DNA from: Polytrichum commune
Lineage: Eukaryota; Streptophyta; Polytrichopsida; Polytrichales; Polytrichaceae
NCBI GenBank assembly: GCA_950295325.1
Contig: OX485803.1
Span: forward strand, 9,176,001 to 9,240,000
Length of the DNA: 64,000 nucleotides
Direction: 5' to 3'
Within the stretch, counting starts at the first letter, position 1; each line of letters starts with the position of its first letter. A model generated the notes under the pieces. It was not told where the DNA came from and did not search any database. It saw only the letters and a list, made by a program, of their open reading frames with translations. Both the position numbers and the translations under genes were made by a program. This document shows positions 6,752 to 27,539 of this stretch, piece by piece.

Positions 6752-8190
6752 GTGGGGGACGCACATGAGCTAATGGGGTAACAACTCTATGATCTGGCAA
6801 GTTGGCCTGAGGTGAGAAAAATGGCATTGCGAGTTTTTACAGCACAAAACCAGGGAAACAAATCATAGGACTAACTTCACTCCTTCAGATATGTGCTTGG
6901 AGAGAACTTGGATCTCCATTACTCCAAGTTCCTTAAATAGGATTGGTCGACAACATGAGACTCAGGCCTTGATGATGAGGGGGATTGCACACATCCACTT
7001 TGTACATTAATCCCTACCTCTTGAATTGATGAAGGAGGCAGGCATGCACAATTAGCTCTCAGAAAATATGAGAAGGAGGAAAAAGGCATTTTTGTGCCAC
7101 TGGAAGAAGAACCTTTGATTCATCACCAAGCCTTCATGGGGACACAAGATGCCCGAGACGGCAACATTCAAGCTTCATAGGAATCTGTTGTGCAGACACC
7201 ATGCAAGTTGATGGAGCAATGCATTGAGGAATTGGCCAACCAAAATCAACTAAAACCATTGGAATGGAGGCTAAAGAGCACATGCACAATGTCACCAAGC
7301 CCCGCCGGGGGGGGATCTTCATACCACGTACGAATTAATGTGAGTGTAAGAAAGGGTATTATTTGAGGTATTAACATACATAATGTACATCAAGGAGATG
7401 TATTATTTGTCTCTAGTGTGTACATCTAAAAAGACCATGGAGAAATTTGAAGTAAAGGTAGATGTACAAAAAGGGGCCTTAAGGTTTAGAGAAAAACATG
7501 ACAATAGATGTGTTAGTTCATCCAATTCACATTTTCATCCACTGTTGTCATGTGGCAATAGTCCTCGATGACTACCCTATTCATTCTTGTTAGGGTTTGC
7601 ATTTGGGTTCTAGGTGTTTATAAATTGGAGGCTCTTGGAGTGCTCATGGGCTCCCTTGAGTTTTGCTCTCCATATTATGATCAAGTTATTGTGCTTTTGT
7701 CTTTGTTTCTTTGATGCGATCATTGGATTACATGCTATGGATGGAAATTTGTTCAATGATTTTCTCATTAGAAAGTGAAAGCAAATTTCATATGTAATAA
7801 AATCATATTGAATTCATGATTTATATCTTGTATATGTAGTGGAGGCATTCATCACACTGAACTAAAAAGCTTAGTATAAATACATGAGTCCATTTTCTAG
7901 CTTGCAATTAGTATGTATACCTTTGTCTATAAACTCTCGTATAAAGGGGGTTTACTTTCATAGTGACCCACGCACGTCATTTAGGTTTCCAATGAAGAGT
8001 CCACCCCTTGGGCACCTTGCACAAAACCTCATTCATTTGCCATAATTTCATGTTTTCATGTTTAAAATTTTTAATAACATTAATATAAAGAAGGGTGAGT
8101 GGAAGGGAATAAGGCCATGGATCACAAATTGCTTCATCCATGACCTAAAAAAGGCCAGGCATCATGTAAGAGTTCAAAATCTAGATTTTA
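6752..8190. other. No recognisable gene
   Basis: I find no known domain on either strand. There is an eight-base G run near 7310. The sequence becomes AT-rich after about 7.8 kb. Confidence 0.5.
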
Positions 8191-8200
8191 GTGGCATGGC

Positions 8201-8202
<2 letters not shown>

Positions 8203-8232
<30 letters not shown>
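8203..8232. repeat. (AG)15 microsatellite
   Basis: Thirty bases of uninterrupted AG directly upstream of the Ty3/gypsy RT fragment. It replaces whatever coding sequence preceded the RT. Confidence 0.95.
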
Positions 8233-8235
<3 letters not shown>

Positions 8236-8730
8236 CCCCTCTCCCCATGGGCTTCCCCTGTCATTTTAATTACAAAAAATTACATGTTCGTACATTTTTG
8301 TGTGGATCACAAAATGTTGAATGCAATCACCCTAAAAATATGGAATCCCTTCCTTAAAATTAATGATACAATAGACCAATTACAAGGAGTGACAATCTTT
8401 GTGTCACTTGATTTAACTATGGGGTTTTGGCAGGTCCTATTGGAAGAAGGAAATCAAGAGAAAATGACATTTGTTTTGTTGGGAAGCCCTATCCAAGTAC
8501 ATACTCATGCCATTTGCTCTATTAACTGCAATAAACACCTTTCAAAGCCTGATGAATATAGACATGGGTAGCCTTAGATGGCAATGCGCACCGGTGTACA
8601 TTGACAACATCAATATATGTTTTAAGAGCTATGATGACCACTTAAGGGATCTACCCAAGATGTTTGAGAGGCTAATCAAGGCCAGGCTCAAGTTGAAGCC
8701 AAAAAAATGTTCAAAAGGGGGTGTAAGCAT
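8233..8730 (+). pseudogene. Ty3/gypsy-type reverse transcriptase fragment
   Basis: The first frame (to about 8480) reads SPWASPVILI, then FCVDHKMLNAITLK, then FVSLDLTMGFWQV. These are the start of RT, the FCVDYR.LN block and the first catalytic Asp block of gypsy RT. A +1 shift at about 8475 leads into a second frame with MPFALL.A..TFQ.LMN, then VYIDNINI, then HL......FERLIKARLKLKPKKC. The usual YIDD box has become YIDN, so one catalytic Asp is lost. Only about 160 residues survive. No LTR, gag, protease or integrase was found nearby. A dead fragment. Confidence 0.85.
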
Positions 8731-9105
8731 ACTATAGTGTCCTTGTTTTGATGTCACATTGCAATTTTTATAACCAATTGATAAGTTATAATGAATCCTA
8801 CGCTCAATGGTCTTTGCATCATATAAAATAAGACTTGTGTATATGACATAATGTTAATAACAAGAGGTATAGAGAAAAAGATATTTTCCCATCAAATGTT
8901 TACATCATACATGGGGTTTTTGTGTCATTTACATATCCAAGGTCACAATCCCAATGAAACATGTATATGGACTTACTATTTTCAACTTGTGCAACAAAAA
9001 TGTAATATATTCTTCAAAATTCATGAATATAGTATGAATTATATAATTGATGTTTGTAGATGATTTTGAAGACATGTTTGAAGGCTTAGGACTTTTTAAA
9101 CATTC
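8731..9105. other. No recognisable feature
   Basis: AT-rich DNA after the RT fragment. The reading frame and the family resemblance both stop. Confidence 0.5.
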
Positions 9106-9529
9106 CACATGGAGGTCACTCCATTGTAAAGTTGAACAACCACGTGCGAACACTTTACATGTAAAACATCCTACTTTTTACATAAAGCATCACCAAAATG
9201 GGTCAAACTTTTATCAAAAAAAATTCATGAGTAGATATACACGTACCTATTACATACTAAAAAAAAGGTAATTAAATTTGATGATTTTTGTCTTTTTATA
9301 AAACATATTGTTTCTAACTAGAATGATGCAGAATTGAACTAAGAAAATTACTACAAAAAACGAAAATGACCAAAAATTTCAAAAAAAGATAAAAAAGATA
9401 CTATCAATGGTTATGCATATGTAGAAAAAATAATCATAAATTTTAAAATCATCTATGGCATGTAATATAGGGGTAGCAAACTTTGATTGCACGTGGTGTT
9501 CAACTTGACAATGGAGTTACCTCCCCGTG
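9106..9529. mobile_element. hAT-like MITE, copy 1 (424 bp)
   Basis: The inverted ends begin CACATGGAGGTCACTCCATT on the left and CACGGGGAGGTAACTCCATT on the right (reverse complement), then continue to a CACGTGCG-like block for about 43 bp. Flanking octamers AAACATTC (9098-9105) and AAACGTTC (9530-9537) match at 7 of 8 positions. An 8-bp target duplication points to the hAT superfamily. The interior is AT-rich, non-coding and closely similar to copy 2 at 22,658-23,066. Confidence 0.85.
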
Positions 9530-10364
9530 AAACGTTCATTAACAACATACAATGATGAAGTTCTAACTCGCTTCAAAAACATGTCTTTGCATACATTCTT
9601 TTCATGGAAGTTATATTACATGATGCAAAGCATGGTTCCAAGTAATCACCTTTTTAAAAGTATTTTCCTATATCTATTCTATATCACTATGGTGTATGTG
9701 GTGGATGGGACGTTCAGTTTGGGCACATACATAATGGTTAAGGTTTTGGGCATGCATAAGGTTCATCCACCTACAAAATTCTTGTACCACGGAACGGACT
9801 CCAAAATTCCCCCAAAAATGGACACTCTAGCTTGCTCTCACCCATCTTTGAGAGAGGAGTTTTCACCATACAACTAGAGTCGGTGTGATGGAGATTACAT
9901 TCAAGATGCTTGCTTTTGACCTGTCAAACAAGCACTCAACACTAACCTTTAGCAATTTGAATCTACTTAGCAAAGAAGTCACATGAACGCTACGTTCTGT
10001 TTATAGTTCCAATTCCCTGTAGAGAAGTTCGTACATGCAATAGCTTTTTATCAGGATTCAGGACACAGATTTTCCCTTAGACCTCAAAAAGGTTTCCTGC
10101 ATTTGAATTTTTGATGCTAGCTAGGTTCCCTTCCCAGAGATAGATAGAAACTCCGGTCCCTTTTAGGGGCCGGCGTGAATAGAGTGTCAGTTCGTAATGC
10201 CAACAACCCGATGCCCACAGGACATGGGGAAGCTGGGACAAGACTACTCTCCTCTTTCGAGGATGGACACTATAGTAACCGAGAAACAAATAACATGGGC
10301 CGATCATGGCCCACGGGGGTGCATGCCTTTTAAGTATAATTAGTGTTTTTGTAATGAGAGTGAA
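9530..10364. other. No recognisable gene; may hold LINE 3' flank
   Basis: No family recognised. The frames at 9527-9877 (+) and 10077-10370 (-) show no domain. The GC content rises from about 10.07 kb. The part next to 10.36 kb could be 3' untranslated sequence of the minus-strand LINE or flanking DNA. Confidence 0.4.
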
Positions 10365-10519
10365 CACCAAGTCATGATTCCTCGGTTGGTTGTGGGAGGA
10401 TGTTTGAGTTAAGACGTTCCGGGTTCGATTCTAGTCGAGTCCGTATGATCGTTTAAAATGTAAGACGTGACTTGGTGCTGCAAGTGAGTAAAAGGCAGGA
10501 AATTTGTACCAACCAACCG
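10365..10519 (+). other. tRNA-like / pseudoknot-forming segment near the LINE 3' end
   Basis: Two perfect 10-nt complementary pairs interleave: CACCAAGTCA (10365-10374) with TGACTTGGTG (10468-10477), and CGGTTGGTTG (10383-10392) with CAACCAACCG (10510-10519). The order a-b-a'-b' is that of an H-type pseudoknot. Between them lies GGTTCGATTC (10422-10431), a perfect polymerase III B-box core. A poor A-box-like TGGTTGTGGG lies about 35 nt before it. The segment may be a tRNA-derived SINE in plus orientation or a structured 3' end of the minus-strand LINE. It is not a functional tRNA gene. Confidence 0.5.
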
Positions 10520-10579
10520 GCATCAATCCCTCATTCTGAGCTGTAAATAGATATTAACTATTATATAAGTTTTTGGGTT

Positions 10580-11290
10580 TTATGGAGGGTCTAAGTTTTG
10601 GGGGAGCGGTTGGTGGTTTTCAATTCTCCTCTTATGGAGGAGGATGGACATGGCATATTGTATTGCAATGGTATTAATATTTTTAAAGGTATTTTTGATG
10701 GTAACCATGGGTATTTTGAGATTTTCTTCTAGTATTTTCATAGATGGGATGTGGGCCGTAGCTCGGGCCCCAGCTGTGATGACAATAAGTGGTTCGATTT
10801 TCCATCCTCTGGAAGCGATACTATCAATCAATGGTTTGTATTTGTTGTTTTTTGCTTCTATTGCTTCTGGGGAGAATTTGTCGTTACAATATGTGAATTC
10901 AATAAATTGTATGGTGAGGTTAGGGTCAATGTCAATGGGAGGGTCATTTTGATATGGTAATCCTTTAACGCAGAGTATATCAGGTCGAAATCTTGCGTTG
11001 CAATGACATCTTTGTGTGTTACATGTGCAGGGGAGTAGCCAATTGGGGACAGTGTTTTCTTGGGGATTATTATTGAAGGTACCGGCATTCATGAGAGTAA
11101 AACATCGGGATTTTTCGGACGAGATTAGGAGCTTCCTAATTTCTCCGACTGCTTTGTTATGTCTTTTAATTCGTAGTGAGTGTATATGTTGTTGGTTACA
11201 TTTCAGTAGTACATGTAGCCAAGTGTCTGGATCATTTGAATTGCATATAGGGCACGTGATAGAGGGGTACCTCTGGTGACCAAAGAACAT
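10580..11290 (-). pseudogene. LINE C-terminus: CCHC finger plus RLE-like (PD...E) domain
   Basis: This frame is the direct continuation of the RNase H frame after a single TAA at 11291-11293, so it is the C-terminal part of the same polyprotein. Residues C13-x2-C16-x9-H26-x4-C31 form a CCHC finger (CPIC...HVLLKC). A second Cys/His cluster follows at C88, C90, C95, H96 and C97. It is followed by RPDIL (102-106) and, 25 residues later, IQFIEFTYCND (E131), then K147/K150, and GWKIEPLIVITAG (162-174). A finger followed by R/K-PD...D/E is the layout of the restriction-like endonuclease of R2/CRE/Dualen elements. The EFT block recurs in the old copy at 60.85 kb, which argues that it is functional. 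The usual E-x-K is not exact, so the nuclease call is an inference. Confidence 0.6.
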
Positions 11291-12568
11291 TTATTTTCTA
11301 GCATTACCCATGTATGTTCCTGTGCGGAATTTAATAAGGCAGGATTTTTGTTTGTCTGTGATTAAGGGATTTGTCCAGAATTCGTTGGACAGTTCTTTGT
11401 CAATGTCTATATTTTCTGTCCATTTACACGTGTTGGGGGTTTGTGTGGCCATGATTGCTATATTGGTTTCCCTATCATATTTTTTAATTTGTTTTTCTAA
11501 GAATCTTACTGGGCCTTTGTCTGGGACGTCTGCCATCGAGGCCCAGACGTCCTTTTGATAATAGTACGGGGTGGCGTGGGCATGTTCGTATGGGTGGATG
11601 GCAATTCTGTGTTCTAATTCTAACCTGTCTTTTGCTAGTTTATCCGCTTTTTCATTACCGTCAATGTTGACGTGTGCTCTGACTTTGTATAGTGTGATTG
11701 GTTGTGTACGGTCTTGAAGGATTTTTACCATGGAGTTGAGTGTGGTTTGGTCTGGGTGACTATTATGGAGAGTGGGGTGTTTAATTTGTGTGTTGAGTAG
11801 GTATAATACGTTTAGACTGTCTGTGAATATAAATGCGGGTTCATTAGGAAATTGTGTATTGATGATTCTTAGTGTTTTATGTATAGCCATCATTTTTGCA
11901 CGTAGTATGTTTTGATGCCCATGGAGTCTTTTGGCGATATTTAAGCCTTTGGGGCTATAGATACCATATCCAGCTCTTTCTCTTCTCCATACCCCAGGGG
12001 CAATTTCTTTGGGTTTTATAAAGGATCCGTCCGTGTAGTAGCTAAATTGGGGGTGGAATTTTAGCGGTAAGTTGGTTTGGTAGTTTGGAAGTTGTGGGGT
12101 GGGGATATTATTGTGTAGGGGTGTGTTTGGGTAGTTTGATTTAGCCCATTTTTTACTAGGGTTAACGGTGATGTTCGGAGGGGTGGGTGGTGCAATTTGA
12201 GTGTGGCTTTGTAGTATTTGGAGGTTATTTGTTGTGTCATTTATTAACTTCATTTGTTCGTAGGTACCTATGTTATTATTTTGGTGATGGATACAGAATA
12301 TTTGCATGGTAGATGGTTCTTTCCTTGTGATATTGAGCTCGGGGGGTATTGTTGGTTCTTCGTATGTGATTGTGTCAGCGGCAAAATGGGCAATGACATG
12401 TGTGTCTGGGAATGGGCCTGTGTGTGGGTTCGAGTTTTGGTACCAATCAGTGTCTGGGGATATAATTATAGTGATTGTGTAAGGGTCATTTTGGGCCGCC
12501 ATGTGTGCCCAGTGAATTGCTTGTTGTAGGTATGTTGAGTTGTGAGGGTGTGCGTATCCGATTCCTTG
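11291..12568 (-). pseudogene. LINE RNase H domain (catalytic Glu replaced by Lys)
   Basis: RNase H would degrade the RNA strand of the RNA:DNA hybrid during target-primed reverse transcription. Counting from the Met at 12502, the domain shows YYTDGS (D158), IFTDSLN (D228) and KVRAHVNI followed by GNEKADKLAK (H277, D287). The second acidic position, expected as RAE, reads RAK (K203, codon at 11894-11896), so the enzyme should be inactive. The frame is open upstream to 12568, adding GIGYAHPHN and QQAIHWAHMAAQ, so 12502 is not a real start. It ends MGNARK then TAA, after which the same frame continues as the CCHC domain. Upstream it is cut by the 1.9-kb insertion. Confidence 0.85.
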
Positions 12569-12571
12569 TCA

Positions 12572-14486
12572 TTTATAGTCAAACACTTTACCTAAGGATC
12601 CAAATATTATGTCTCGTGAGAATGGTGAGTAGAATTGGGTGAATTGTGTAGGACATGTAACTGGGGATGAAAAATATGAGTGGTTGTAGTTAGCTTTTTG
12701 GTTACAAACAAACCCAGGGAACAAGTCAGGGAAGACTTAAAAGGTGATTCTTATATCATCTAGGTGTCTTAGACAAGGTTTTGTTAGGATAAACACAAAG
12801 GTGTAACACTTTACTTCATCTTTGGTGTGACAATTCATTTAAAGATAAGGGGTAAAAAAACATCTAAAAGACCCCTCTTTTCCAGTACATGCAAGAGTGA
12901 CAGTCTCTCACCTCACTTTACTTTTCATGGCAATCGTCTGGCAATGAATTCTTTTTATTAGGACCAAGTGCGGTGCACAAGCATAGGCACAGCCATCGAC
13001 TATAGTCTTTGCATAAGTATCAACATTGTGTCTTAATTATCAAAGCCAAGGGCACTTTGATCTTTGCTATAGTCTTTAGATTCATATTAGCATAATACAC
13101 ATTTGATTATAGTCTTTAATATAGTCTTTATGCATTATGAATCATAAATCCAACAAAACCATATGTAGGATAAGAGCGCATACATTCAATTATTAATCAA
13201 TTACAAAACAACGAGATTGGGATTACCCCTTCCTGGAATAGAAAACATTCAGCCAATGACTGCGTTGTCCTTTCGGTTTCTCACCAAGGTATCTGTTCAA
13301 GGCTATAGTCTTTCCACTAGGCCCTTTCATCTCCCAGCATGACTATTGCCTTCTCAGTCCATTAAGGTACTTATACTTAGGATTACAAACACACACACAC
13401 ACTCTCATTGGGCTAGTACAGATTCCTTGATTTCATTTAATCATCTTATTAGCTTATGTCATCGCTTACTTTATTAATTTCACATTCTTACTCCATTGAC
13501 ATGAAGCTCTCAGATTTACATTTGATTACACCATGACAATTCCTCTCTTAGAATTCCTCTTAATTACCAAGACTATAGTCTTGCCTTAATTGGGTCTACC
13601 CCAATCCCTCCAGGAAATTCCCTAGTCAATCACGAAGACGATAGCCTTCACTCAAGGTAATTGAGAATGAAATCTCATCTTCCCTTCCCACAGGAAGGTA
13701 ACTTCCCAGACTATTGCCTTAAACTATGATGAGAGATGATCTCAGTTATTAATGCAGACCATTGCCTGGCCGTGTACATTTTCTCTGAATCATTAGATAA
13801 TGATAAATTTAGACTATGGCCTGATCATGTAATTGAGTTTACTCAATTCTATTGATTCAAGTGGTCTTACAATCAATTACACACAACACACAAGGCCATG
13901 AACTATAATCACTGTAGCGAGGTAGAAACAATTCTCACAACAGTAATTCCTACACTTTGCAATCCCTGCAAGGTGTACTTACAACAGCCACAGACTATAA
14001 CCCTGACAATCACTTCAAATCAGTCTTCCGTCCCAATATCAGACTATAGCCTGAATTCACAATTAATATCCAATAGACACAACAACATAAACAAGATAAA
14101 TCTCTCACAATAAAATAATTCAGGATTCACTCCCATATAAGTAATTACTTAATATTGATCAATGTTACATCAAAAGACTATCGTCATGCACAACCAAAGT
14201 GCATCAATTTGCAGACTATACTTCAAAAGGTCTAAAAACAATGGAGTTCAATCTCTATCCCAGAGATGACTAACTTCTCTCTTACCTCCCCCTTCCTTTA
14301 TATTGTGTGGGGAGTCCTCTTCAGCCTTACATCCTTTCATATCAGACTATAGCCTTGGAAGTTATGCTTTTCAGAATCTGAAGACTATAGTCTGTTCACA
14401 TGGACAATATCTTAAGATTTCAGTGCAGATTTTGTCCCTTTTTACACTGAATTCTAATTTGCAAAAAGATAAACTAAAAATTGCTA
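12572..14486. mobile_element. 1.9-kb insertion inside the LINE, loaded with a 12-bp palindrome
   Basis: The LINE reading stops at both edges. The triplet TCA (12569-12571 and 14487-14489) flanks the insert and may be a target duplication. Bringing the edges together gives an LINE frame that reads through apart from one base. The composition changes abruptly from G/T-rich to balanced. Inside, the palindrome AGACTATAGTCT and close variants (AGACTATAGCCT, AGACTATTGCCT and others) occur about 17 times between 12997 and 14393, roughly every 30-130 bp. I found no terminal inverted repeat, LTR or coding domain, so the element class is unknown. Confidence 0.65.
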
Positions 14487-14489
14487 TCA

Positions 14490-15334
14490 CAGTGGTTAAT
14501 ATTGAATGTTGTAATTAGTAGATCCAATATTTGAGTTGGTATTGTATATTGGGCTCTTTTGAGTGGGTCGTCTTTTGGGATACGGTATTTGTATCTTTGG
14601 TATAGCCAAACAATTTCAGTTTCGAATGATTGGGTAGATGGTTCTAGACCGTGTGTGGTATTTTTTGCCAATTGGTATTGTTTCCATAGCCATGTTAGTC
14701 TAGCTTTCGGGATGGTGATGAGATGCCTTCCATTGTCTTCGTATATGTGAGCGACATCGAATTGTGTTTGGATAGTATCAGAGTTTGTTTCAATGTCGTT
14801 TTCTGGGTTGCATTCACTAATAGAGATATGTGCTAGCGGAATTATTATGGTTGGTGTGACGTATCTTGTATCTCGGTGTTGTTCTGTGGTGAAGTATGCG
14901 TTAATGATGTTTGAAAAATGCTTGTGTTGTCTTTCTGTGTAATATTGGATAAGCAAGTTTGTGTTGTGATTGCATATGTTGGCTTCACAGTAGGGGTATA
15001 GGTCCCTTTGGGTTCGCCATTTATTATATGTGTTGTTATTTGTTGTGGTCCATTGACATAGGTATGACGTGACTGTTCTTTTTATTCCATTGTGGTCATT
15101 AGATTGTCTTTGTTTGTGATTGAGTATTTTGTGTATGGAGAATTGTCGGGGGTTTTTAAGCATGTTGTTGGGGGGAGGAGGTAGATGGAGGATGGGGAGG
15201 TTAGGGGGGTGTACGGGGGCGGTCGGTGTGTGAGGTAGGATGTTGTGATTTCTTATTATATATTTGTTTTTGAGGGATCTTGTTGGGTGATGTTGTTGGC
15301 AAGGTAGGGAGCATTGATTGCAGGGGGGTGGCAA
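14490..15334 (-). pseudogene. LINE post-RT region with Cys/His patch
   Basis: Continues the polyprotein after RT, in the next frame. It opens with CNQCSLPCQQHH, a compact Cys/His cluster (C-x2-C-x3-C-x2-HH) suggestive of metal binding. It ends where the 1.9-kb insertion begins. The overlap with the RT frame (15256-15334) contains a C6 run (15323-15328 on the plus strand as G6) and an A5 run. Adding one base at either would join the two frames. I do not recognise a named domain in the remaining 250 residues, which are rich in Asn, Thr, His and aromatic residues like the rest of this element. Confidence 0.7.
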
Positions 15335-17220
15335 AATAGTTGATTAGCTATATTAAGTGCGTTTTGGATAAGTTTAGAAGGAGTGGAGTGGTAGATTTTG
15401 AATTCGTCCTTGTTCATTAGTGTGGTACCATTAGGCATGGTAATTTGGTATAGTGTGGTTATATTATGTATAAGTAGTTTGTGTAGTAGTTTAAGTGAGG
15501 TGTTGGGGTTAAGGCCATGTAGCATTTGTGTTTCTTGCATCCATGCAGTTTCAAGTGAGGATGGGGTTAGTAGGAAGTTATTTATTGTACTTTTTAGATG
15601 GACTCCGGCTTTATGCTTGAGCAAGAACAATGTTCTAGTGATGGGTGATCTAACACAGTGGTGGTATTTAATACGAGTGATTTCTTGAGAGCCCCCATAT
15701 TTGGCGAGTATGAATTGTAATAGACCAGTATATATTTTCCCAATTCTCCCTTTGTCATTGAGGGCATTTTGTAGTTGTTCTCCAATGCATCTTAGATAGG
15801 TATTTTGTAGTAAGAAAGCTTCAATTCCAAATAGGTTGTGTGGGAGTTGTGTAGCGATGTTAGATGTGCATTTGGGTATCCCGCAAATCGTTTTGTGAAG
15901 TGCTATGATTTTTTTATCTAGTTTTTTTATAGCTGGTATGGAGTAAGGTACTGCGTAGAAGCTGTATGCTATTCCAGCGCGTATGACTGTATTTGCCATG
16001 TTTATTTTTTGTTTCATAGTAGCTGGGCATGTTACAAGGGCTTGACATTGTTTGATGACTTTAGCTGTAGTAGTATTTATTTGCGTTTTCCATTTGAATG
16101 ATGGTGCAAGGTTTATTCCTAGATACGTGTATGGTTCATGTTGGTTTAAGACTGGTATAGGTTGATTCCTGTAATTTATATTGGTGGATTGGATTAAGGC
16201 TTTAAAGGTTGTGGGGTGAAGTTTAGATTTATTTGGGCAGCCAGTTATTGCACACTTGGGTATTCCAAGGTCCATTCCTGTCCATTCGCAAAATTTGTCT
16301 AGTTTGTTGAGTTTTGTTTGCAGTGTTTCTAGTTTATTGGCGATTGCTGCAAGATCATCTGCATATGCTACTGATGAGATTTTTACTTTAGATGTGCAAA
16401 AAATGTATCCGTTATTTCTTTGTTGTAGCCATCTGAGGAGGGGTTCTATGAATATGATAAATAGATATGGGCTAAGGGTATCACCTTGTATTGTACCTCT
16501 TTGAATAGGGATTGGTGAGGTTTTTCCGAAGTGTTCGCTAGTGAATATTGTTGAAGATTGTGAGTATATGTTTCCTATAAGGTATATGGAATCAGTGGGA
16601 TATCCAAGATCTTTCATTATGGCTAAAAGTCTGGCGTGATCAATGGAGCCAAAGGCGTTTTTGAAGTCAATATAGAGGATATATATATCTTGGTTCGTGA
16701 GTCTTGCGTCTTCAAGCGCTCCGATGAGTAGTTGGATTTGTCTAGAAGTGTTTCTCTCTGCTCTGAAGCCTTCTTGACTATCATATAATATTTGGTATTT
16801 TTCGCCATATGTTGATAGAATAGAGGTTAGTGTACTCATGTAGAATTTATATATGATGTTAGCTAGCGCAATAGGTCTGTGGTTTGTTAGTTGTGATGGG
16901 TTTTCTTTTTTATATAGTAATACTGTTAGACTGGTTTTCCATGATGCGGGGATTTGTTTTTGTTTATAAGAGTGTTTAAATAATAGGAAGAATAATTTGT
17001 GGAAGCGTGAAGGCATATTTTTTAGAATTGAATTAGGTATTTTGTCTGGTCCTGGGGCTTTGTTATTACTTAGGTTTTTAAGACAAAAGTCGTATGTTTC
17101 TTGGTCAAAATACGTGTATAGAGGGGTGTGGGGCTCTCCTCGCTTGTCAATTATATTTCCGTCTAGGTCATGCCATGGATATTGTCGGACTCCACATGTG
17201 CAGTGTAGTGGGTGTGTATT
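15256..17220 (-). pseudogene. LINE reverse transcriptase
   Basis: Copies element RNA at a nicked target. The first Met is at 17016, but the frame is open back to 17220 and includes CTCGVRQYPWHDLDG and NNKAPGPDKIPNSILK, the conserved region just before RT, so 17016 is internal. Counted from 17016: NHRPIALANIIYK (45-57), SQEGFRAERNTSRQ (80-93), YIDFKNAFGSIDH with catalytic D117, QRGTIQGDTLSPYLF (172-186), and AYADDLAAIA with D220 and D221. All three catalytic Asp residues are intact. The thumb and connection follow. It ends at a stop at 15256 because of a frame change, not at the natural end. A TAA at 17221-17223 separates it from the upstream linker in the same frame. Confidence 0.93.
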
Positions 17221-17995
17221 TTAGTATTTACATGTGGGAACTATAGGACGGTTACTGATGGATTGTTGTATGTAAATTTCTGATGCGATGTCTTCTGGGT
17301 TGGTTAGTATATTGTTTTGTCTATCAATGATGGAGTCAAGGGATGAGGTTTCAGTGTTCTTGAAGACTTTCCGATTTATTTTTTGGGGGGTTCTTTCGTA
17401 CATTTGTCTGTATTTTGATACGGCTTTTAGAATGCAGTCTTTGGTGTATTTTGTGGTGATTTTTCTGGCTTCTTTGTTTTTTTTTGCGATGGTTGCTATG
17501 GTATTAATCCACTCATTAGGAGGTGCCGTTGTGATAGGTGGGTGTGGGATGTTTGTGTGTTGGTAGTTTCGTATATTGTTTAGAATGGGGTGTGCTTGCC
17601 AGAGTGGATCGTGTTGTACAATGTATATGATTTTTCTTATGAGGTGGTATGTGTTGAGGTGTCTTTTCCATTCTTTGGCCAATTTTCGTGGCAGGAAACC
17701 ACCTTGTTGTGATGTTCTGCTCGTAAGGTTTGGTAACGGGTCTGCTTTACATGTTTTTTCAATTGTTTCTGAAATTTTGTTTATAATATGGTCAAATGTT
17801 GTACATGCTTCTACCCATTGATCCGGGCTTAAGTGTTGATGGTTTTCTAGTAATGTGGTAAGGGTTTTTATTTGGGCAGAGTTTTCTTCGAAGAATGTTA
17901 TGTTGAATTTTTCGATATTTTCTGGTGGTATTGGATTTAATATTCTAGTTGGTGACGTGTTTGTGGGGATGGAGATCTGGCTATAAGGGTGTTGT
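17221..17995 (-). pseudogene. LINE endonuclease-RT linker
   Basis: Same frame as RT and separated from it by one TAA (17221-17223). The frame is open far upstream of the first possible start at 17682, back to about 17995, reading SPTRILNPIPPENIEKFN and, later, SETIEKTCKADPLP. It therefore joins the endonuclease frame near a C5 run (plus-strand G5 at 17996-18000). One extra C there would make endonuclease, linker and RT one frame. The region is basic and helical (YTKDCILKAVSKYRQMYE and following). It corresponds to the linker found between APE and RT in LINE ORF2 proteins. No catalytic motif is expected. Confidence 0.75.
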
Positions 17996-18857
17996 GGGGG
18001 ATATGTAGTGCAACTGGATAATGGTCTGAGTTTAGATTTATATTTGTATTTGTGGTGGAGATGAATTTGTTGTTGTTTGGTGAGTGGATGTAGAATCCAT
18101 CTATTAGACTTGTTGATGTGTAGTTATAGCCTCCTTGTCTGGAGATGCGAGTGTTAGTTGGGATATATTCTAGGTTGAGTGATGCAGTAAAAAATTTCCA
18201 TTGGTAGTCTTCTTCTTGTGGGGGGGTGTTAATGTTGTTATTTTGCCTGCCCCTAAGTGCAATATCTCGGTTAAAGTCGCCACATAATGTGTATATGTGA
18301 TTGGGATTTATAGTGATTTGATTAGTGATTTCGTTCTTAATGTGTGGGATAAGGTGTATGTCTTCTAAGTGTGTAGGCATATACATATGTATGATTAGCC
18401 AAGGTATTAGTGGGTGATTGTTTATTTTAATTATTTGTAAGTATGGGGAGATATTTGCTGGTGTGGGAATTTTGGTAATATTCCCAGGGAATGCATATTT
18501 TTTGTGGATAAGTGTGAGTAGGCCTCCTCTTCCGGGTGTATAGGGCATTCTTTGTTGTATGCATCTTGTGAGTGCATGTGTGTTGTTGAAGATGAGTTTA
18601 AATTCCGGAAATAGATTTTGTATATATTTTGTAGATTTGTTTGCAGTTAGTTTGGTTTCTTGGATATGTATGATTGTTGTGTTGTTTAGCGAATTGTTTA
18701 TTAGGCTTTGTAGGTTTGGCAGTGAAGTGTTGAATGATGATGCATTCCATGTTATTATGTTTGTTTCGTGTTCAGTGTCTGTGTTGATTCTTATGGTTGG
18801 TGCGGGAGTAGCTGGGGGTGGGGGGGGTGCGAGTATTCGTTTATGCTTTCTAGACAT
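17937..18857 (-). pseudogene. LINE APE-type endonuclease
   Basis: Nicks target DNA to prime reverse transcription. All family motifs are present and intact: TWNASS (N38), HIQETKL (E67), GRGG (109-112), MYMPTH (Y159), CGDFN (D194, N196), LIDGF (D253) and SDHYPV (D278, H279). The natural coding region begins earlier, because the frame enters from the previous open frame at a C8 run (plus-strand G8 at 18820-18827) inside a Pro-rich stretch. It leaves near 17996 by another frame change. The domain itself has no stop, so its decay is recent or the breaks are sequence errors. Confidence 0.92.
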
Positions 18858-19048
18858 CGAAGTGCTTCAGTAATTAATTGATTTGGGAGGAAGGTAAATT
18901 TATTTTGGAGGGTGATGGGTGTGGCTGTAGTATCTTGGTTGTGAATGAATTCATATATTTCTGTGTGTATTGAATTTTTTGGGAGTATTAAATCTTGATT
19001 ATTTCCTACAAATGTTGTGTAGGGGTGAGGTGTCAATATGTGTCTTTC
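18791..19048 (-). pseudogene. LINE segment between 2A region and endonuclease
   Basis: A short open frame that links the 2A-bearing frame to the endonuclease frame. It overlaps the upstream frame at 19033-19036, and its nominal start is TTG, so it is not an independent gene. Upstream it can be entered from a C9 run (plus-strand G9 at 19049-19057), where one more C would keep the upstream frame open. Downstream it meets the C8 run at the endonuclease start. It reads TPHPYTTFVGNNQDLILP and following. No domain recognised. Confidence 0.65.
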
Positions 19049-21018
19049 GGGGGGGGGTTGGTGAGGTTAGCTAGTCTAATAATTAATGTGTTGGTCCATA
19101 TGTCGTTAAAGTGGTAATTTTGGGGTTGGGCTAGTATGCCATTGCATGTGTCTATTGAGGGGTGGATGGTGATGACTATAGCATATAGCATATGGGTTAG
19201 TGGTGATTGCCTTTGTGTTTGGATGTATTGATGTAGATGTGGGTGGGTATTTATTGCTTGATGGTGTATTGGGTGTGTATTTTTTAGTATTGGAGCAAAT
19301 GTATTTGCTATGTGTTCGTATTCAGGTTGTAGTTTTAAAGTATTTGGGATGAAGTATATGTTGGCTCTTTTTTTGTGTGTAGCAGGATGTGTGTGTAGTA
19401 TGTTAGGCATTGGTCCGGGGTTGGATTCTATGTCCCCGCACTTTAGTAATTCTAGTTTGGTAATGAAGTAGTATCCGTGGAAGTGGATTATTTTTGGATA
19501 TATTGTGATTGTGAATTTGGTTGTGGTAGAGAGGTTAGGTATAGCGGGTATGGTGTTTTCTATTTGTATGGGTGAGAAGTGTGGTTTTGTATTATTTATA
19601 GATTTTTGGCTTGTTATTGAGTTAGGTTTCCAATTATTTATGAAGTGGTATTTGTTATTATTTGTGTGGCGAGGCCGGTAGGCCGAGGCCATTGTGTTTT
19701 TTGGGTGGGGTTGGTATTTTGTTTGAGGGCTTATTAGGTTTTTGATTTTGTGATGGTGTTCGCAGTTAGGGTAGGGTCTATTTTTGGAGCATTTGTTTTG
19801 TAGGTATGCTTTGGTGTTTGTTGAGAGGTGAGGTTGGTAGGTTGAGGTTGCTTTGTTTTTCGGGTTGAGTTTTTGTTTAGTGTGCAAATTTAGTTTTGAG
19901 TAGGGGTGGTTTCTGGGGAATGATTTGTGATTTTGGTGGGTGTTATATTTGGTTAAGAGGTGTGTATGGGAGTTGTCTTGGAGTACGTGTTTTGTAGTTG
20001 TGCGTGGTTTCCATTTGGTTGTGATAGGGTTTGGCTTGTGGTGGAGATGGTAGGACAAGGTCATTTTGTAATTGTGATATGATTTGTATTTCGAGTGGAG
20101 GTTGGATTTGGAACTAGGGTATGGTGTGTTTTTTGAGCGTAGGTTGGGATGTTTTTTAGATAGTGGGTGAGGTTCTAGGTTAGGTTGGGTTTCTTGTTTT
20201 GAGTGGGTATTATGCTTTGGGCGTTGTTGTGGATGCACTTTGTTTTTAAGGTAAAGTCTAAGTTTTGAGCGGATTCTATATTTCGGATGAAGTTTATTCT
20301 TTGGATGAGAGTTGTGTCTTGGATGGAGTCTATGTTTTGGATGTGATATGTATTTTGAGTGAGGTTGGGGGTGTTTGTGGGTTGGATGGGCATTGTAGTG
20401 TAGGATGGATGTGATTTCTTCAAGTTGTTTGGGTAAGAGGTGTGTGTTGTAGATTGTTATTGCTTTTGGTTTCTCTTCGTTTGTAGATTGGTATTTATAA
20501 CTTTTATGGCGTGGCCGGTGGGCTAAAACCTTTTTTTGTTTGGGTGCAATTTTGTGCTTAGTGTGGGGATGGAGTTGTTTTTTGAGGTAAAGATTTGGGT
20601 TAATGTTTTGGTGTGATTTGAGTGTTTGATATTTGTTTTTATTGGTTTTTTGGGGTGGGATGAGTATGGGTATGAGGCCGGAAGGCCGAGCCCTTCTTAG
20701 GTGGTTGTCGTGGATTATGTTTTGTGTTTTTATGTTTTGGTGTTTTAGGGGATTTTTGTTTTTTGAAAGGGGTGAGGTAGTATTGTGGGTTGTTGTATTT
20801 GTAGTGATATGGTGTGTGTTTGTATGTTTTCTTATTGTCTTTTGTGTTTGATATGGTTTTGGTTTTGTATATGTGTGTTTTGTATTTTGGATGTGAGCTT
20901 TGGTTATGTTTGTTTGTTTCTTGTGTTTGTCCGTAGGGTTTATGTTTAATTTCGGTAAGGTTTTATATGTATAATGAAGTTTGTATTTTTGTTGAGGTCT
21001 ATATTTTGGGTGTAACAT
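19033..21018 (-). pseudogene. LINE basic low-complexity protein with 2A motif
   Basis: 661 residues. Residues 1-500 are extremely rich in Lys, His, Pro, Thr, Asn and Tyr, with degenerate HPK(Y/H)(K/R)LHPK-type repeats, and look derived from an 18-bp unit. Such a basic, disordered region could bind element RNA (inference). The 2A motif ends at residue 536. The 125 residues after it lead into the endonuclease through two frame changes. With 2A active, the ribosome would release the basic protein and then make the endonuclease-RT-RNase H polyprotein from the same frame. The true start is not clear; the same composition continues upstream to 22.66 kb. Confidence 0.75.
19411..19437 (-). other. 2A (CHYSEL) ribosome-skipping motif
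   Basis: The minus strand encodes GDIESNPGP at residues 528-536 of the open frame that starts at 21018, preceded by ITKLELLKC. The 2A consensus is D(V/I)ExNPGP, with the skip between Gly and the final Pro, and a preceding LLxxGD-like segment. Every key residue is present. 2A sequences are known in several APE-type non-LTR retrotransposons, where they separate an N-terminal protein from the rest. Confidence 0.92.
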
Positions 21019-21505
21019 TGAGTTTGGGTGGGGTTTGCATTTTGGATGCGTGTAGTATATTGTTTGAGTATTGTTTTTGTGTGTGTATATAGTAAGGTAG
21101 TTGTACTTGTGTTTTATATGGTATTTTGGGTGTTGTAGGATATCATGCTTAGTATGATAATATCTAGTTTTAAAGAGTGTGGACTTTGTTGTATGTGTGT
21201 ATATGGTACTAGGGTGTGGTTGGATTTCTTTGTTTTTTGATGGTATCTTTTATTGCATAAGAGGTGTATTGTGGTTGTAGGGCAGCGTAGATGTTTGTAT
21301 TATAGGAATACAAAAGGATTTCTAATCTCATAGGGGATATAGTAATTGTGTTGATGGGTCTTTGTTGGTAAGGGGTGTTGGGTGGTTTATGCCTTGTTAT
21401 GTTAGCTGTGGTTTTGGTTTTTTGGTATGTTTTTGTTTTGTTGATCTTTTCTTTTATTTTTTTTGTTTTTTTGTTTTCTTTATTGGCGAGGCCGGTAGGC
21501 CGAGC
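19671..21505. repeat. Recurrent GAGGCCGGTAGGCCGAG motif in the LINE 5' region
   Basis: Copies of GAGGCCGGTAGGCCGAG or near variants lie at 19671, 20511 (GTGGCCGGTGGGC), 20674 and 21486, with a fully C-to-T decayed copy near 19830. GGCC occurs twice with a 4-nt spacer. The motif is by far the most GC-rich sequence in a G/T-rich strand. It is read in two different protein frames inside the same open frame, so the nucleotide sequence rather than the peptide is what is conserved. Confidence 0.7.
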
Positions 21506-22660
21506 TCGTTCTAGTTTATTATGGTTTTTGTTAATTTTTAACATGGAAGTTGAGTATTTTTCGTGGTATTTGTGTTTTGGGTTGTAGTATAGTTTTGGGT
21601 GGGTTTTGAGGTTTGGGTAAGGTGTGTTTGGTTTAGTGATATCTATTTTTTTTAATTTTGTGAATATATATTTGGTTGTGGTGGAAGGGTTGGTTGTGGC
21701 GGGTGTTATGTTTCTTACTTGTTTGGGTAAGAAGTATGTGTATTTTGGATGTGTTTTGTATGTTGGGTGGGGTTTGTATTTTTGGTGGAGTTTATATGTT
21801 TGGTGAGGATTATATTTTGGGTGTAATATGTATTTTGTGTGGGGTTTGTATTTTGGGTGTGTATATTGTTTCGTTTGAGTTCTGTCTTTGTGCATGTGTA
21901 AAGTAAAGTGATTGTATTTATATTTCATATGGTATTTTGGCCGTAGTATGGTATCATGGCTAGTATGATGGTATCTTTTATTATAGAGTACGGAATTTGT
22001 TGTGGGTGTGTGTATGATGTTTGGGTGTGGTCGGGTTTTAGTCTTATTTATTCTTTGGTTTTTTATGATTATGTTTTTGGTTATAGTGAAAGGGTTAGTT
22101 TTGGCGGGTGTTATGCTTTTTATTTGTTTGAGTAGGAAGTATGTGTATTTTGGATTAATTGTATGGTATTTGTATTTTGTTTGAGTATAGTGTTTTGTTT
22201 GGGTATTGTATTTTGCTTGAGTACGATATTTTGCTTGAGTATAGTATTTTTCTTGAGCATGGCATGTTGCTTGAGTATGGGATTTTGTTTGAGTATGGTG
22301 TGTTGCTTGAGTATGGCATTTTGTTTGAGTATGGTATTTTGTTTGAGTATGGTATTTTGCTTGAGTATGGTATTTTTCTTGGGTATGATATTTTGCTTGG
22401 GTGTGGTATTTTGCTTGAGTATAGTAGTTTGCTTGAGTATAGTATTTTGTTTGAGTATGGCATTTTGCTTGAGTATGGCATTTTACTTGAGTATGGTATT
22501 TTGTTTGTGCATGGTATTTTGTTTGAGTATGGTATTTTTCTTGGGTATTGTATTTTGCTTGAGTATGGTATTTTGCTTGAGTATGGAATTTGTGTTCGTA
22601 TAAATTAGATAACTTGTATTTCATATGGTATTTTGGACATTGTGGGATACTCTGAGTCAC
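21209..22660 (-). pseudogene. LINE 5' open frame of YHTQAK-type repeats
   Basis: 483 residues. The N-terminal third is about 24 tandem copies of a six-residue unit, YHTQAK and variants (CHTQTK, YNTQEK). The rest is a looser mixture of HPKYK and TKY motifs, like the next frame downstream. It has the same strand and composition as the 2A-bearing protein and lies directly upstream. It may be ORF1 of the element or non-coding 5' sequence that happens to be open, since all three frames of an 18-bp repeat without stops stay open. The start at 22660 is only the first ATG. No RNA-binding domain (RRM, CCHC) is visible. Confidence 0.45.
22170..22606 (-). repeat. 18-bp tandem array, ~24 copies
   Basis: Plus-strand unit GAGTATGGTATTTTGCTT with point variants and no length changes, so the period is strictly 18. 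It encodes YHTQAK on the minus strand and other hexapeptides in the remaining open frames on both strands. It sits at the 5' side of the 2A LINE. Confidence 0.93.
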
Positions 22661-23066
22661 GGGTAGATCACTCCATTGTCAAGTTGAACACCACGTGCGA
22701 CCAAAAAAATCTTCTTTTGGTAAGTTGCACCACCAAAATGGGTCAAAATTTTATCAATTTTTTTTCATGAGTAGATATACACAGTACCTATGACATAGTC
22801 AAAAGTGGTAACTAAATTTGATGATTTTTTTTTTTCATAAAACATACCGTTTCTAACTAGAATGACACAAAATTGAACTAAAAAAATTACTAAAAAAAAT
22901 AAAGATGACCAAAAATTTCAAAAAAGTATACAAAAGATACTATCAATGGTTATGTATATGTAGAAAAAATATCATAAATTTTAAAATTATTTATGGCATG
23001 TAATATAGGGGTAGCAAACTTTGTCCGCACGTGGTGTCAACTTGACAATGAAGTGACCTCCCCGTG
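22658..23066. mobile_element. hAT-like MITE, copy 2 (409 bp), inside the LINE 5' region
   Basis: The ends CACGGGTAGATCACTCCATT and CACGGGGAGGTCACTTCATT (reverse complement of the right end) extend about 43 bp to CACCACGTGCG. Flanking octamers CTCTGAGT (22650-22657) and CTATGAGT (23067-23074) match at 7 of 8 positions. The interior aligns along its length with the copy at 9106-9529. It splits a LINE 5' module (TGGGATAC... / ...AGTACGATGGTATCT), so it inserted after the LINE. Confidence 0.87.
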
Positions 23067-23232
23067 CTATGAGTAGTACGATGGTATCTAGTATTTATTC
23101 TAGTATTTATTCTAGGTGTAATAGTATATAGAATACTATGTGTAATACTATGTTTAATACTATGTCTACATATGTGTATGTATCTAAGATAGTATTGAAG
23201 TAAATACTTTTGTTTTACCTGGCGATTTGTGG

Positions 23233-24986
23233 TCAATCCACATTTGGCAGGTCTTTAATCATAAGATTTGGGTTTACCAACCCAGTAATTTGTTGCATTC
23301 CGGTAAGTGCCATGGTTAATGTGCTTTGGATGTCCAACATTTGCTTCTTCAAATTTTCATTGATGTCATCTACATAGTTGTGGGCCTCTTTGACTATGTC
23401 ATCCTTCAAGACCTTCATCTCTTCGTGTAGTTCAAGCTTGAGTTTCTTGTTGCCTTCTTCAATGGCCTCCTTCATGATGGTAAAAACTTCGCTTTTGGTG
23501 GCATTCTTCTCCCCTTGGTTTTGGTTTTGGATTGCTTCAATGGTGTTCACCAAGCAAGTGTTAGTATCTTCAAATCCAAACTTGACCAACAAATCTTTAG
23601 AGGGTTTGTCAATACCATCAAGACTTCTACGGTGGAGTGATTTCCACATGATAAACACCAATTTTTTCTTCTTTTCCTACAAACTTTTTGTATACAAAGG
23701 GGTTGAGGCATTCAACATTTGCACTACCATTGTGTCTAATTCCATCTTGCTTATGGAACCAAATGGAGACAACATTCTTGGTTCCAATTATCTTGCAAAT
23801 TTCAAGAGATGTGTCATCTATGCTCATCAAGATGGGAAGGTTGTAGAGGGTGAGGGTTAGAGCTTCTTTCCTTTGTTTTTGCTCCAAGGTGAGAGAAGGC
23901 CCTTTGTTCACTTGTCCTTCCAAAATTTCATGGTGTGTTGCAACTTGAAGTGTTTGGATTTTCTTGGCTTGTGAGGGGGTTGGTGCAACAATGTAAGCAT
24001 GATTGTTGGAAGTGCTCTTTTGCACTTCTACAATCTCAAATTCATGACCTCTCCTAAAACTATTCTCTAAGATATCTTTGAAGAGCATGTGTGAAGAGAC
24101 ATCAATCAAAGTTTCGCTAGTGATTTTGATTGAAAGGTTGTTGTTCCTAGCTATGGAATGGTAAATCTTACATACCTTTCCAAGAGTACCTTGGGTTGAT
24201 TTGGGGTCCAATTGTAGAATGAATGGTCTAAATCCTTTCAACAAAGCCACACCATCAATTTCGGGGTGGAGAAGGTGGAGTTTGGCAATTCCCGCCCAAA
24301 CTTCTTTTTCCCCACCTCTCTTGACACTCATGTACATGATAGATATGGGCTCAATAAGGTTAGTGCCAAGAGGTATTTGCATAAACTCAAGTATTTTCCT
24401 TACTAGTTCTTTCACATGGTTGTGTAGGAGAGGGGTGTTAGGTAATTGGAATTCAATAGCAACATGGATTCCAAAGCGAGACATGTATTGGGGTCAATTG
24501 GGATATCATATGGGATTTGTGTTAGGTTTAGATGTTGTCCAAGGACACCATCCTCTCTCTTACCTGGGTAATAGGTTTGGGGTATCCTTGGGAAGGATAT
24601 TGCGACTCCCTCCATTTCTTCCGCTTCCTTCCTTGGTACTCCCCTAAGTACCCTATCTTCAATGGATTCACCATCGAAGAGCTCTTCCAACCCCTCTTCC
24701 ATAGCCAATTTCTCCATGTTAGTGAAACCATACCAAAAATTTTGACGGAACCTTTGTTCCGGGACAATGGAACTTACCTTTTGGGCTTGTGGGCGTCGTT
24801 GTGGAGTTTGGTGTAGAGATTTGTTCGGTGTAGTCTTCTCCCGGGTCCTCTTGGTGCCTATTTCCTTTGTAGCTTGATTCTCCTTTGCCTTTTCGCTAGG
24901 AGCCGCATGAGGTTTTGTGTGGGTGTGTCTACCTCCATATTGTCATCATCTCCAAAGATGGGTCGGTATGTGGAGGGTGATGCCAT
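23233..24986 (-). pseudogene. LINE ORF1-like protein with coiled coil (orphan)
   Basis: Three overlapping minus-strand frames appear to be one protein of about 580 residues. The best start is the ATG at 24986 (AACATGG), giving MASPSTYRPIFGDDDNMEVD. Frame changes lie near 24.91 kb, 24.50 kb (at a C4 run) and 23.63 kb. The middle part (23627-24484) has two segments with an RRM-like look: EIVEVQKSTSNNHAYIVAP, and LTLYNLPILMSIDDTSLE followed by GSANVECLNP. The end (23233-23480) is a long acidic/basic heptad region ending in a Met/Gln-rich tail. RRM-like plus coiled coil is a typical ORF1 plan for LINEs. No matching ORF2 follows, because the 2A LINE starts at once downstream, with quite different composition. 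A gag-like protein of another element is the alternative. Confidence 0.5.
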
Positions 24987-25039
24987 GTTGGGGTCACTTT
25001 GGGTAGCCTCTCCCTCCGCCTTCCCTAGCTGTTCCTCGT

Positions 25040-25600
25040 CAGTAAGTCTCGGTGCTCTCAGTGTGGTCTTGGGTAGTCTCGGTGCTCTGGTCCTGGCGCT
25101 CCCAGTGTGTTTTCTGTGCGGTTTCGGTGCAGTCCCGGTGCACACAGTACGAGCTTGGTGCAGTCCCAATGCAGTCTTGGTGCTCACAGTGTGGTCTCGG
25201 TGTGGTCCTGGTGGAGTTTCGGTGCAGTCTGGGTGCAGTGTCGGTGTAGTCGCGATGCTCTCGGTGCTCTTAGTACAGTCTTGGTGAATTCTTGATGCAG
25301 TCTCGGTGCTCTTGGTGTACTCGGTGCACTCTCGGTGCGGTCTTGATGCTCTCGGCCGTATTGGTTCCAGTTGTATACTTTTAGCTGTGTGCTTACGGCA
25401 GCTTTGGCGCTTATGTTCTGTCACTCCCTCCAACTTCCCTAGCAATTCCTTACCATCAAGTATCGTTGCTCTCGGTGTGGACTTGGTGCAGTCACGGTGC
25501 TCTTAGTGCGGACTTCGGTGCAGTCTCTGTACTGACTCGGTGCGTCTTGGTGTTCACGGTGCTCTCAGTGCTATCTCGGTGTATACTTGCACTAAGCCTG
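25040..25600. repeat. Degenerate TCGGTGCAGTC/TCGGTGCTC minisatellite
   Basis: The words CTCGGTGCAGTC, TTGGTGCTCTC and GTGTGGTCTCGG recur at intervals of about 9-15 bp for roughly 500 bp. On the minus strand this gives a Thr/His/Pro/Ser-rich frame upstream of the ORF1-like start, more likely 5' untranslated sequence than coding. Confidence 0.8.
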
Positions 25601-25639
25601 TTCGCAATTTTCGTGGGTCTACCTAGTTTTCTACCTAAA

Positions 25640-26720: not shown

Positions 26721-27539
26721 CTTAAATTTCACAGGCGTCCTTACCTTCTGATGGTTCTCTCTCGGTCTTGTAGCTCTGTATCTCCCTTGTAGTAGGCCTT
26801 TCGCAATCATGTCTCCACTCGGTGTTTCTACAGCATCTCCGTTTGGTGGCGGCGTCGGCACTCTCTTCGGCAGCGGCTTAGTTGGTTCTTCGGCGTTCTC
26901 CCTTGACAGCGTCGTTCTTCTTCGTCTCCTTCGGCAGAATTTCGAGGTCTCTAAGGGAGGAGTTTGTGCGGTGTGTTGCGTCTTGTTGGTATGTGTGCAG
27001 TTTGGGCCTTGTTGCGTATGAATATGCTGGTAACCCTAGATCTCAAATTTGTGTTGCAACTACCCCCTTCTTTCCCCAATCGGCACCAACCTGTGCTCGT
27101 ATCCGTGGATTCCAGCTTGCTTCAGTATCAATCCACTTTGAGGCAGCTGCATTACACAATGAGATCTACTTTTGGATCTAAAAGTCTTCACTGTGAATCG
27201 CGATCTGGGCGTCACTCCTCCCGGGATTCACAGGTAGTCTTTAGATCAGTGGCCTAACACATATCGACATGCAACAATCCCTCCCTGTCACTAATCTTCA
27301 GCTCCTCTTAGCACACATCCCTCTTTCCTCAAAGTCTTAGTTTTTTTTGTGTGAACTCCATGATTCTCAATACTTGAAAAGAATGAAAAAGAACATTAAG
27401 TTTATGACGTGAAGATGGTCCATCCTCGTTACATTCGTGTATGGAAACACAAGAGGGACATGGTACATTGCCTTTCTTTTGATAGAGACCCGATTGGTAG
27501 AGTGAGAGGGACTGATCTTCCCTTCCCACAAACTACACC
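26721..27539. other. No recognisable gene
   Basis: GC-richer DNA with open frames (26809-27021, 26882-27181 and 26964-27257 on plus) that show no known domain. A Gly/Phe/Ser-rich stretch on plus is too short to call. Part of it may be 5' sequence of the minus-strand ORF1-like element. Confidence 0.4.

Follow-up and report, generated by a model that had tools for sequence, protein, structure and literature searches.

Can a single long interspersed nuclear element (LINE) of a land plant carry both an apurinic/apyrimidinic-type endonuclease (APE) and a restriction-like endonuclease (RLE), and are both of them kept in working order? The question is raised by a 64,000-nucleotide stretch of the moss Polytrichum commune (C1:9176001-9240000 of a 407.8-Mb assembly in 64 contigs), hereafter the window, where a first-pass annotation had noted motifs of an APE, a reverse transcriptase (RT), an RNase H, a CCHC finger and an RLE, together with the 2A sequence GDIESNPGP. 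All of these motifs are present and, like every other piece of the element, lie on the minus strand. The 2A is evident from the sequence, and Pfam recognizes RVT_1 (at 15256-17220), RNase_H (at 11291-12568) and, in both cases below the curated cut-offs, Exo_endo_phos_2 and Exo_endo_phos (at 17937-18866). The window copy runs from remnants of a first open reading frame (ORF1) through a basic region, the 2A, APE, RT, a chromodomain-like segment, a PCIF1-like region, RNase H and CCHC-RLE to the 3′ untranslated region (UTR); the chromodomain-like and PCIF1-like regions, situated between RT and RNase H, had previously been overlooked. We conclude that this copy is probably a decayed member of a dual-endonuclease LINE group of Dualen-like type, with recent activity in the genome of a bryophyte.

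The RLE open reading frame of the window has no Pfam match at E ≤1. The model built from alignment A1 of the family (mean predicted local distance difference test, pLDDT, 76.8; predicted template modelling score 0.76) retrieved R2 proteins as the top seven PDB rows in Foldseek (4e-7 to 5e-3), and VIA-align placed seven R2 entries at Z 12.7-14.5, with the next row at 8.4. The corresponding sequence profile yielded two PDB matches at E ≤10, both to R2 of Bombyx (E 0.27 each). As modelled, the C-terminal domain is an R2-type RLE of the PD-(D/E)XK fold, bearing out what had been proposed for it, and R2 RLEs outrank all other structural matches. Rows for viral cap-snatching nucleases (VIA-align Z ~8) were read as the common PD-(D/E)XK fold only.

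All 28 RLE rows, from 27 copies, share P103, D104, E131, K147, K150 and Y151 (L004 and L013 are the same copy, and two rows are partial; the set excludes matches of <150 residues and L001, a duplicate entry for the window copy). P103-D104/E131, free variation of which would have counted against the first-pass annotation, do not vary, and together with the R2-type fold this supports a land-plant relative of a dual-endonuclease lineage. The same rows retain all four cysteines of a CxCx4CxC motif just ahead of the PD, which may perhaps form a second metal site. Invariance is wider than the catalytic residues, extending to 48 of 236 positions, while in a single row, L048, which is a fragment interrupted by two stops, Gln replaces R43 of the RHN motif.

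Matches to the RLE frame elsewhere in the genome are 88-100% identical among the 150 scored of 5,439 candidates, a lower bound, and five of them sit in frames of at least 2,625 codons, which indicates that the two-enzyme combination is more than chance. Five copies picked for their long frames, A and E on C1, B on C5, C on C2 and D on C4, cover four chromosomes, and in each of them one ORF2 frame of 2,625-2,924 codons spans 2A, APE, RT, chromodomain-like, PCIF1-like, RNase H, CCHC and RLE in that order. A separate, conserved ORF1, whose pieces match no Pfam family above cut-off, lies upstream of the ORF2 leader: in copies A, B and C a 747-codon ORF1 frame overlaps the 2,625-codon ORF2 frame by 22 nt, the two frames of copy D, measured between stops, span 1,833 and 2,924 codons (the former extending into flanking DNA), and copy E retains a 2,663-codon frame with one stop upstream. 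Copies A, B and C are 99.3-99.6% identical across >10 kb, and D and E 99.7% identical across 13.2 kb. As delimited by their duplications, copy B measures ~12.5 kb and copy D ~14.6 kb; C and E begin further in and look 5′-truncated. An R2-like element nested within an APE LINE could give the same domain set by artefact, and the window copy is indeed interrupted and contains nested inserts; given that a single frame spans all ORF2 domains in A-E and that each of B, C, D and E is enclosed as a whole by target-site duplications, we regard the chance of such an artefact as negligible. We note separately that subfamilies whose ORF2 is 89% identical have strongly different 5′ regions (ORF1 frame of 747 versus 1,833 codons), which suggests that 5′ modules may have been exchanged between subfamilies.

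Beyond these near-identical copies, a search with an APE Pfam model (150 of 401 candidates scored) led to nine further family copies with long open frames, which are 42-63% identical to copy A over ORF2 and have the same domain order, several of them containing a stop or a break in the frame. No catalytic position varies in the alignments of RLE (A1, 11 rows, without L037, which has an internal stop), RT (11 rows), APE (A3, 10 rows, without L035, whose APE lies in two frames) and RNase H (A4, 10 rows, without L033, which has an internal stop); the mid-region alignment A5 omits L032. In copy A the RNase H (Pfam 1.2e-13) is likewise placed between RT and RLE. Ratios of nonsynonymous to synonymous substitution (dN/dS; Nei-Gojobori, copies A versus D) are 0.071 for APE, 0.051 for RT, 0.057 for RNase H, 0.040 for the CCHC finger and 0.111 for the RLE, and 0.042 for the chromodomain-like segment, 0.094 for the PCIF1-like region and 0.113 for the linker. 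For several domains dS has reached saturation in three other pairs, two of which still yield a ratio for the RLE (0.155 and 0.080). Judged by these ratios, APE and RLE are both under purifying selection. It is conceivable that the RLE is a non-cutting remnant kept for binding DNA or RNA, since APE alone suffices in L1-type LINEs, but the unchanged PD, E131, K147 and K150 and the low dN/dS of the RLE make this very improbable.

The relationship to known LINEs was approached through the RT. In a tree of 20 rows, 11 elements cluster together (97/99) and, with two sediment contigs, form a group (100/98) that stands apart from R2 (98/96) and from L1 (100/98); the midpoint root serves display only, long branches lead to R2Bm, human L1 and another R2, and the composition of R2Bm is odd. 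Of the phylogenetic placement called for by the first-pass annotation, the tree provides the separation from R2 and L1, the references compared. Against the PDB, the RT profile scores highest with R2 of turtle and zebra finch (136.9, 119.1 and 118.6 bits), followed by R2Bm (87.7) and L1 (84.9). R2 inserts into rDNA and is not known to carry APE or RNase H; the moss element resembles it in the RLE fold, in the order of CCHC then RHN motif and in these RT matches, and differs in possessing APE and RNase H and in its unrelated insertion sites. Plant L1 has APE and is not known to have an RLE. The moss element shares APE and RT with plant L1 and differs in its RLE, its separate RT clade and its (CTAT)n tail; RNase H is reported for plant L1 in passages of PMC4640811, and (A)n ends for 224 of 233 flowering-plant L1 families in those of PMC3747384. 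Plant L1 LINEs of the zf-RVT type are also present in this genome.

The two sediment contigs carry APE and RT in different frames (L042) and RT with a PCIF1-like match (L043), and both end short of an RLE. They are small metagenome contigs binned as Mollicutes and Clostridiales, although they encode LINE relatives, and are probably eukaryotic contaminants in bacterial bins. A Cys-rich stretch of L043 resembles a PHD finger by eye, yet no Pfam PHD model matches it at E ≤1. No relative turned up when viral contigs were scanned using the alignments of RT and RLE, and phage records gave no RT match.

The closest published counterpart is Dualen/RandI of green algae, for which the union of APE and RLE in one element is the diagnostic mark and RNase H is listed as well (passages of PMC3636483 and PMC4640811), and which in eight algal families has (ATT)n or (CTATTT)n tandem repeats at its 3′ end (as stated in part of PMC3747384). 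Likewise, the moss element combines APE and RLE in a single open frame and has RNase H and a short tandem-repeat 3′ end. The original description of Dualen reportedly includes a cysteine protease. Pfam scans that covered part of ORF1 and, in the intact copies, pieces of ORF2 other than the stretch following the 2A detected no such protease. Further differences, drawn from a comparison with the published description of Dualen rather than its sequence, are the land-plant host and the presence of the 2A, chromodomain-like and PCIF1-like regions, which the Dualen passages seen do not mention or tie to Dualen. The moss element could thus be an ordinary Dualen/RandI in a new host, its extra domains being common to algal Dualens and merely unannotated there; L043, which belongs to the same RT clade and has a PCIF1-like match of its own (9.4e-6, under the curated cut-off), would fit this explanation, which we consider a serious contender at a little under even chances.

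Between copies A and D, dN/dS is 0.564 before the 2A and 0.145 after it. Two 2As are present in five of the nine family copies, separated by 139-154 residues wherever they share a frame (one of the five has them in different frames); this count includes additional upstream sequence for five of the nine. The proposal of a basic protein set off by a 2A is less well supported than the others, given the fast evolution of the region before the 2A and the variability of the 2A described below. LINEs with a 2A within an ORF are known from trypanosomes and sea urchin, without an RLE being reported in the passages of PMC4981915 consulted; the moss family differs also in the two 2As of five of its nine copies. 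A GC-rich 23-nt motif before the 2A was considered as an RNA-level repeat and dropped, as it occurs once per copy (by a fuzzy search that perhaps returned best matches only).

The mid region between RT and RNase H is less uniform in its support. Pfam PCIF1_WW is found in 10 of 10 members at E ≤1 (best 1.3e-11), copy A reaches 43.5 bits against PF12237 (curated cut-off 31.1), and the best 150 of 697 PCIF1 candidates in the genome are all above cut-off, with no host gene singled out. Both PDB entries that the PCIF1-like profile matches at E ≤10 are PCIF1, of zebrafish (8.3e-4) and of human (0.048), and in VIA-align human PCIF1 ranks first with the mid-region model (Z 7.0), followed by a chromodomain (Z 6.5, root-mean-square deviation (rmsd) 2.5 over 55 residues). 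Homology to PCIF1 (CAPAM), a cap adenosine methyltransferase, is well supported and extends through the FGS.G segment, where the PDB match stops just before the position of NPPF, which we take to be the catalytic motif of PCIF1. At this position, as located by alignment A7, the elements have HPHN, HPHT, FPTD, YPTD, HPKD or HPIY, so that the Asn is replaced in 10 of 10 rows and methyltransferase activity appears doubtful. A chromodomain is likely, with Pfam Chromo matching five of 10 members (0.013 at best; 12.5 bits in copy A versus a cut-off of 25.1) and a PDB profile match of 0.0035.

How such an element would integrate can be approached from its insertion sites. Target-site duplications of 12 bp (copy B), 12 bp (C), 14 bp (D) and 11 bp (E) flank four of the five copies checked, at unrelated sites. 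The 3′ ends of the copies compared share a hairpin and (CTAT)n and then pass into unrelated sequence; 12 distinct 3′ flanks are unrelated (L001 being the window copy, and L002 and L003 sharing a flank, probably by duplication of the region), as are those of B, C and E, and the single site-specific target that is a hallmark of R2 is not seen. A tRNA-like character of the 3′ UTR gained no support, as ARAGORN found no tRNA in the window and positions 8000-26000 matched nothing in Rfam at E 1. Taken together, the duplications, the domain set and the 5′ ends of C and E, which are shorter, argue that the element would move by target-primed reverse transcription, with the 2A releasing the nuclease-polymerase chain from a disposable leader, the RT recognizing the conserved 3′ hairpin and beginning on the (CTAT)n tail, and RNase H clearing the template. 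Because the insertion sites share no sequence, we suggest that APE leads site choice and would make a first, weakly specific nick, with the RLE and CCHC finger cutting the second strand, the division of roles that we rate likeliest, at roughly even odds. The reverse order, in which the RLE nicks first and primes reverse transcription as in R2 while APE serves the second strand or an accessory role, would accord with the R2-like RLE fold and with the RT profile scoring vertebrate R2 above L1; it is the unlikelier arrangement, as the lack of shared sequence at the insertion sites sets these copies apart from most RLE-only elements. The chromodomain-like segment might steer the complex to chromatin and the PCIF1-like region, its NPPF replaced, might bind the capped RNA of the element without methylating it, a suggestion that we advance with considerable reserve.

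Several observations weigh against this interpretation. Among 20 2A sites seen, in all of which NPGP is present by search design, Glu is kept in eight, and the other 12 have Lys, Gln or His in place of the canonical Glu of D(V/I)ExNPGP; the expanded 2A motif retains this Glu, with rare functional variants (passages of PMC12846837). The mid-region model is poor (mean pLDDT 50), Foldseek found nothing for it at E 0.001, and the Z of 7.0 for PCIF1 comes with an rmsd of 12.6, Z <8 being a range that the tool calls common and that also covers the chromodomain match. No target-site duplication was seen where copy A presumably begins, in copy E some 8 additional bases separate the element from its duplication, and the duplication of copy B came from scanning ~3 kb upstream. 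Selecting the nine family copies for long open frames biases them towards intact ones. Finally, the strand cut by each nuclease is not deducible from sequence, and the activities discussed here are predicted ones.

The window copy itself has decayed considerably (Table 1). Its limits, previously given as 10540-23230, were set wrongly: the 3′ end, with its (CTAT)n tail, is at 10138, and ORF1 remnants reach ~24942. The RNase H has its catalytic Glu changed to Lys (LRAKMM versus LRAEMM in copies A and D). Frame breaks occur near 12.6, 15.3, 17.2, 18.0, 18.8 and 19.05 kb, and a 410-bp miniature inverted-repeat transposable element (MITE) and a 1.8-kb solo long terminal repeat (LTR) have inserted. 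A candidate 11-bp duplication (10126-10136 and 27518-27528) would place the 5′ end at 27517, weakly so, as a second 11-mer match elsewhere in the scanned stretch shows that chance may account for it. The window copy also contains 18-bp tandem repeats at 22101-22650.

Table 1. Features of the window copy and of the sequences inserted in it (window coordinates)
Feature	Positions	Strand	Basis
Stop codon, 3′ UTR, terminal hairpin and (CTAT)n tail; true 3′ end 10138	10138..10582	-	Common to copies compared; flanks beyond unrelated
CCHC finger and RLE, 236 aa; PD 10979-10984, E131 10898-10900	10583..11290	-	Alignment A1, model, R2 structural matches, invariance
CxCx4CxC just ahead of PD motif	11000..11029	-	C88, C90, C95, C97 in 28/28 rows
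CCHC zinc finger (C13, C16, H26, C31)	11198..11254	-	Invariant in all rows reaching it, 26 or 27/28
TAA between RNase H and RLE frames	11291..11293	-	Copies A-E have no stop at this point
RNase H domain, catalytic Glu replaced by Lys	11624..12043	-	Pfam 3.9e-12; ten relatives aligned in A4
PCIF1-like region, second part, after solo LTR; limits approximate	12280..12684	-	Alignment to copy A ORF2 residues 1840-2060
Solo LTR insert, foreign to LINE; 5-bp duplication ACCAC	12685..14491	-	Sequence; gap in alignment to copy A; paired copies elsewhere
PCIF1-like region, first part; limits approximate	14492..14752	-	Alignment to copy A
Chromodomain-like segment	14999..15139	-	Pfam Chromo 0.13 in window; relatives' best 0.013, under cut-off; PDB profile 0.0035; Z up to 6.5
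Reverse transcriptase domain	16108..16908	-	RVT_1 1e-29; R2 best PDB match of relatives' profile
APE-type endonuclease	18012..18755	-	Pfam Exo_endo_phos_2 1.3e-4, Exo_endo_phos 3.3e-3, below cut-offs; catalytic motifs invariant in A3
2A, GDIESNPGP	19411..19437	-	Sequence
Basic, fast-evolving region ahead of 2A, same frame	19438..21249	-	dN/dS 0.56, copies A-D
MITE insert, foreign to LINE	22657..23066	-	Inverted repeats; genome copies 97-98% identical
ORF1 remnants, frame-broken	23236..24942	-	One piece aligned with ORF1 of other copies; tblastx to copy B

The inserted solo LTR contains repeated GACTATAGTC-like motifs, eight with ≤1 mismatch, which are all the hits in the window (shuffles, mean 1.3). 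Its copies elsewhere pair 14-17 kb apart, and the LTR therefore belongs to a large LTR element. The ~410-bp MITE with inverted ends occurs in the window at 9106-9530 as well as at the position listed in Table 1. Because 39 further genome copies, scored out of 2,177 candidates, are 97-98% identical, we attribute it to a recent burst. Elsewhere in the genome, LEAFY C-terminal (DNA-binding) domains lie at three loci, which in itself marks the host as a land plant or a near streptophyte relative, one copy with KMRDY...AWCQ, which we take to be the moss type, and another with KMRHY...AWRQ (L055, L056); the H versus D change presumably concerns a DNA-contact position, giving two LEAFY types in one genome.

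Dual-endonuclease LINEs are themselves already known, as Dualen/RandI of green algae. Parts of the literature record Dualen in Chlamydomonas and relatives (PMC8226300), list it for green algae in a 2015 table of superfamilies limited to one group (PMC4438587), apply the label 'LINE/Dualen' in cryptophytes (PMC12747079) and tabulate flowering plants with L1 and RTE and green algae with RandI (PMC3747384). Acquisition of DNA methyltransferases by retrotransposons is on record as well (passages of PMC5890265). No description of a dual-endonuclease LINE in a land plant, or of PCIF1 in a LINE, was found in the passages seen of the open-access literature, subscription journals lying outside that search. 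As far as this open-access library shows, the new elements are the land-plant host, the 2A, sometimes two, and the chromodomain-like and degenerate cap-methyltransferase-like regions. The fullest reading, that of an undescribed, diverse and recently active land-plant lineage of dual-endonuclease LINEs whose polyprotein, with a 2A (sometimes two in a row), would use a chromatin reader and an altered cap-methyltransferase relative to capture its own capped RNA and steer integration, we put forward tentatively, as somewhat short of an even proposition.

At some point in LINE evolution APE replaced RLE, and the place of Dualen is the evidence cited for this replacement (passages of PMC4640811). 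The presence within one genome of families in which both enzymes are under selection makes a division of labour between them testable, and the existence of intact copies with almost the same sequence suggests that possession of two nucleases can be a lasting condition and not a transitional one. If true, a cap-methyltransferase relative inside a LINE would represent a new route by which an element chooses its own RNA.

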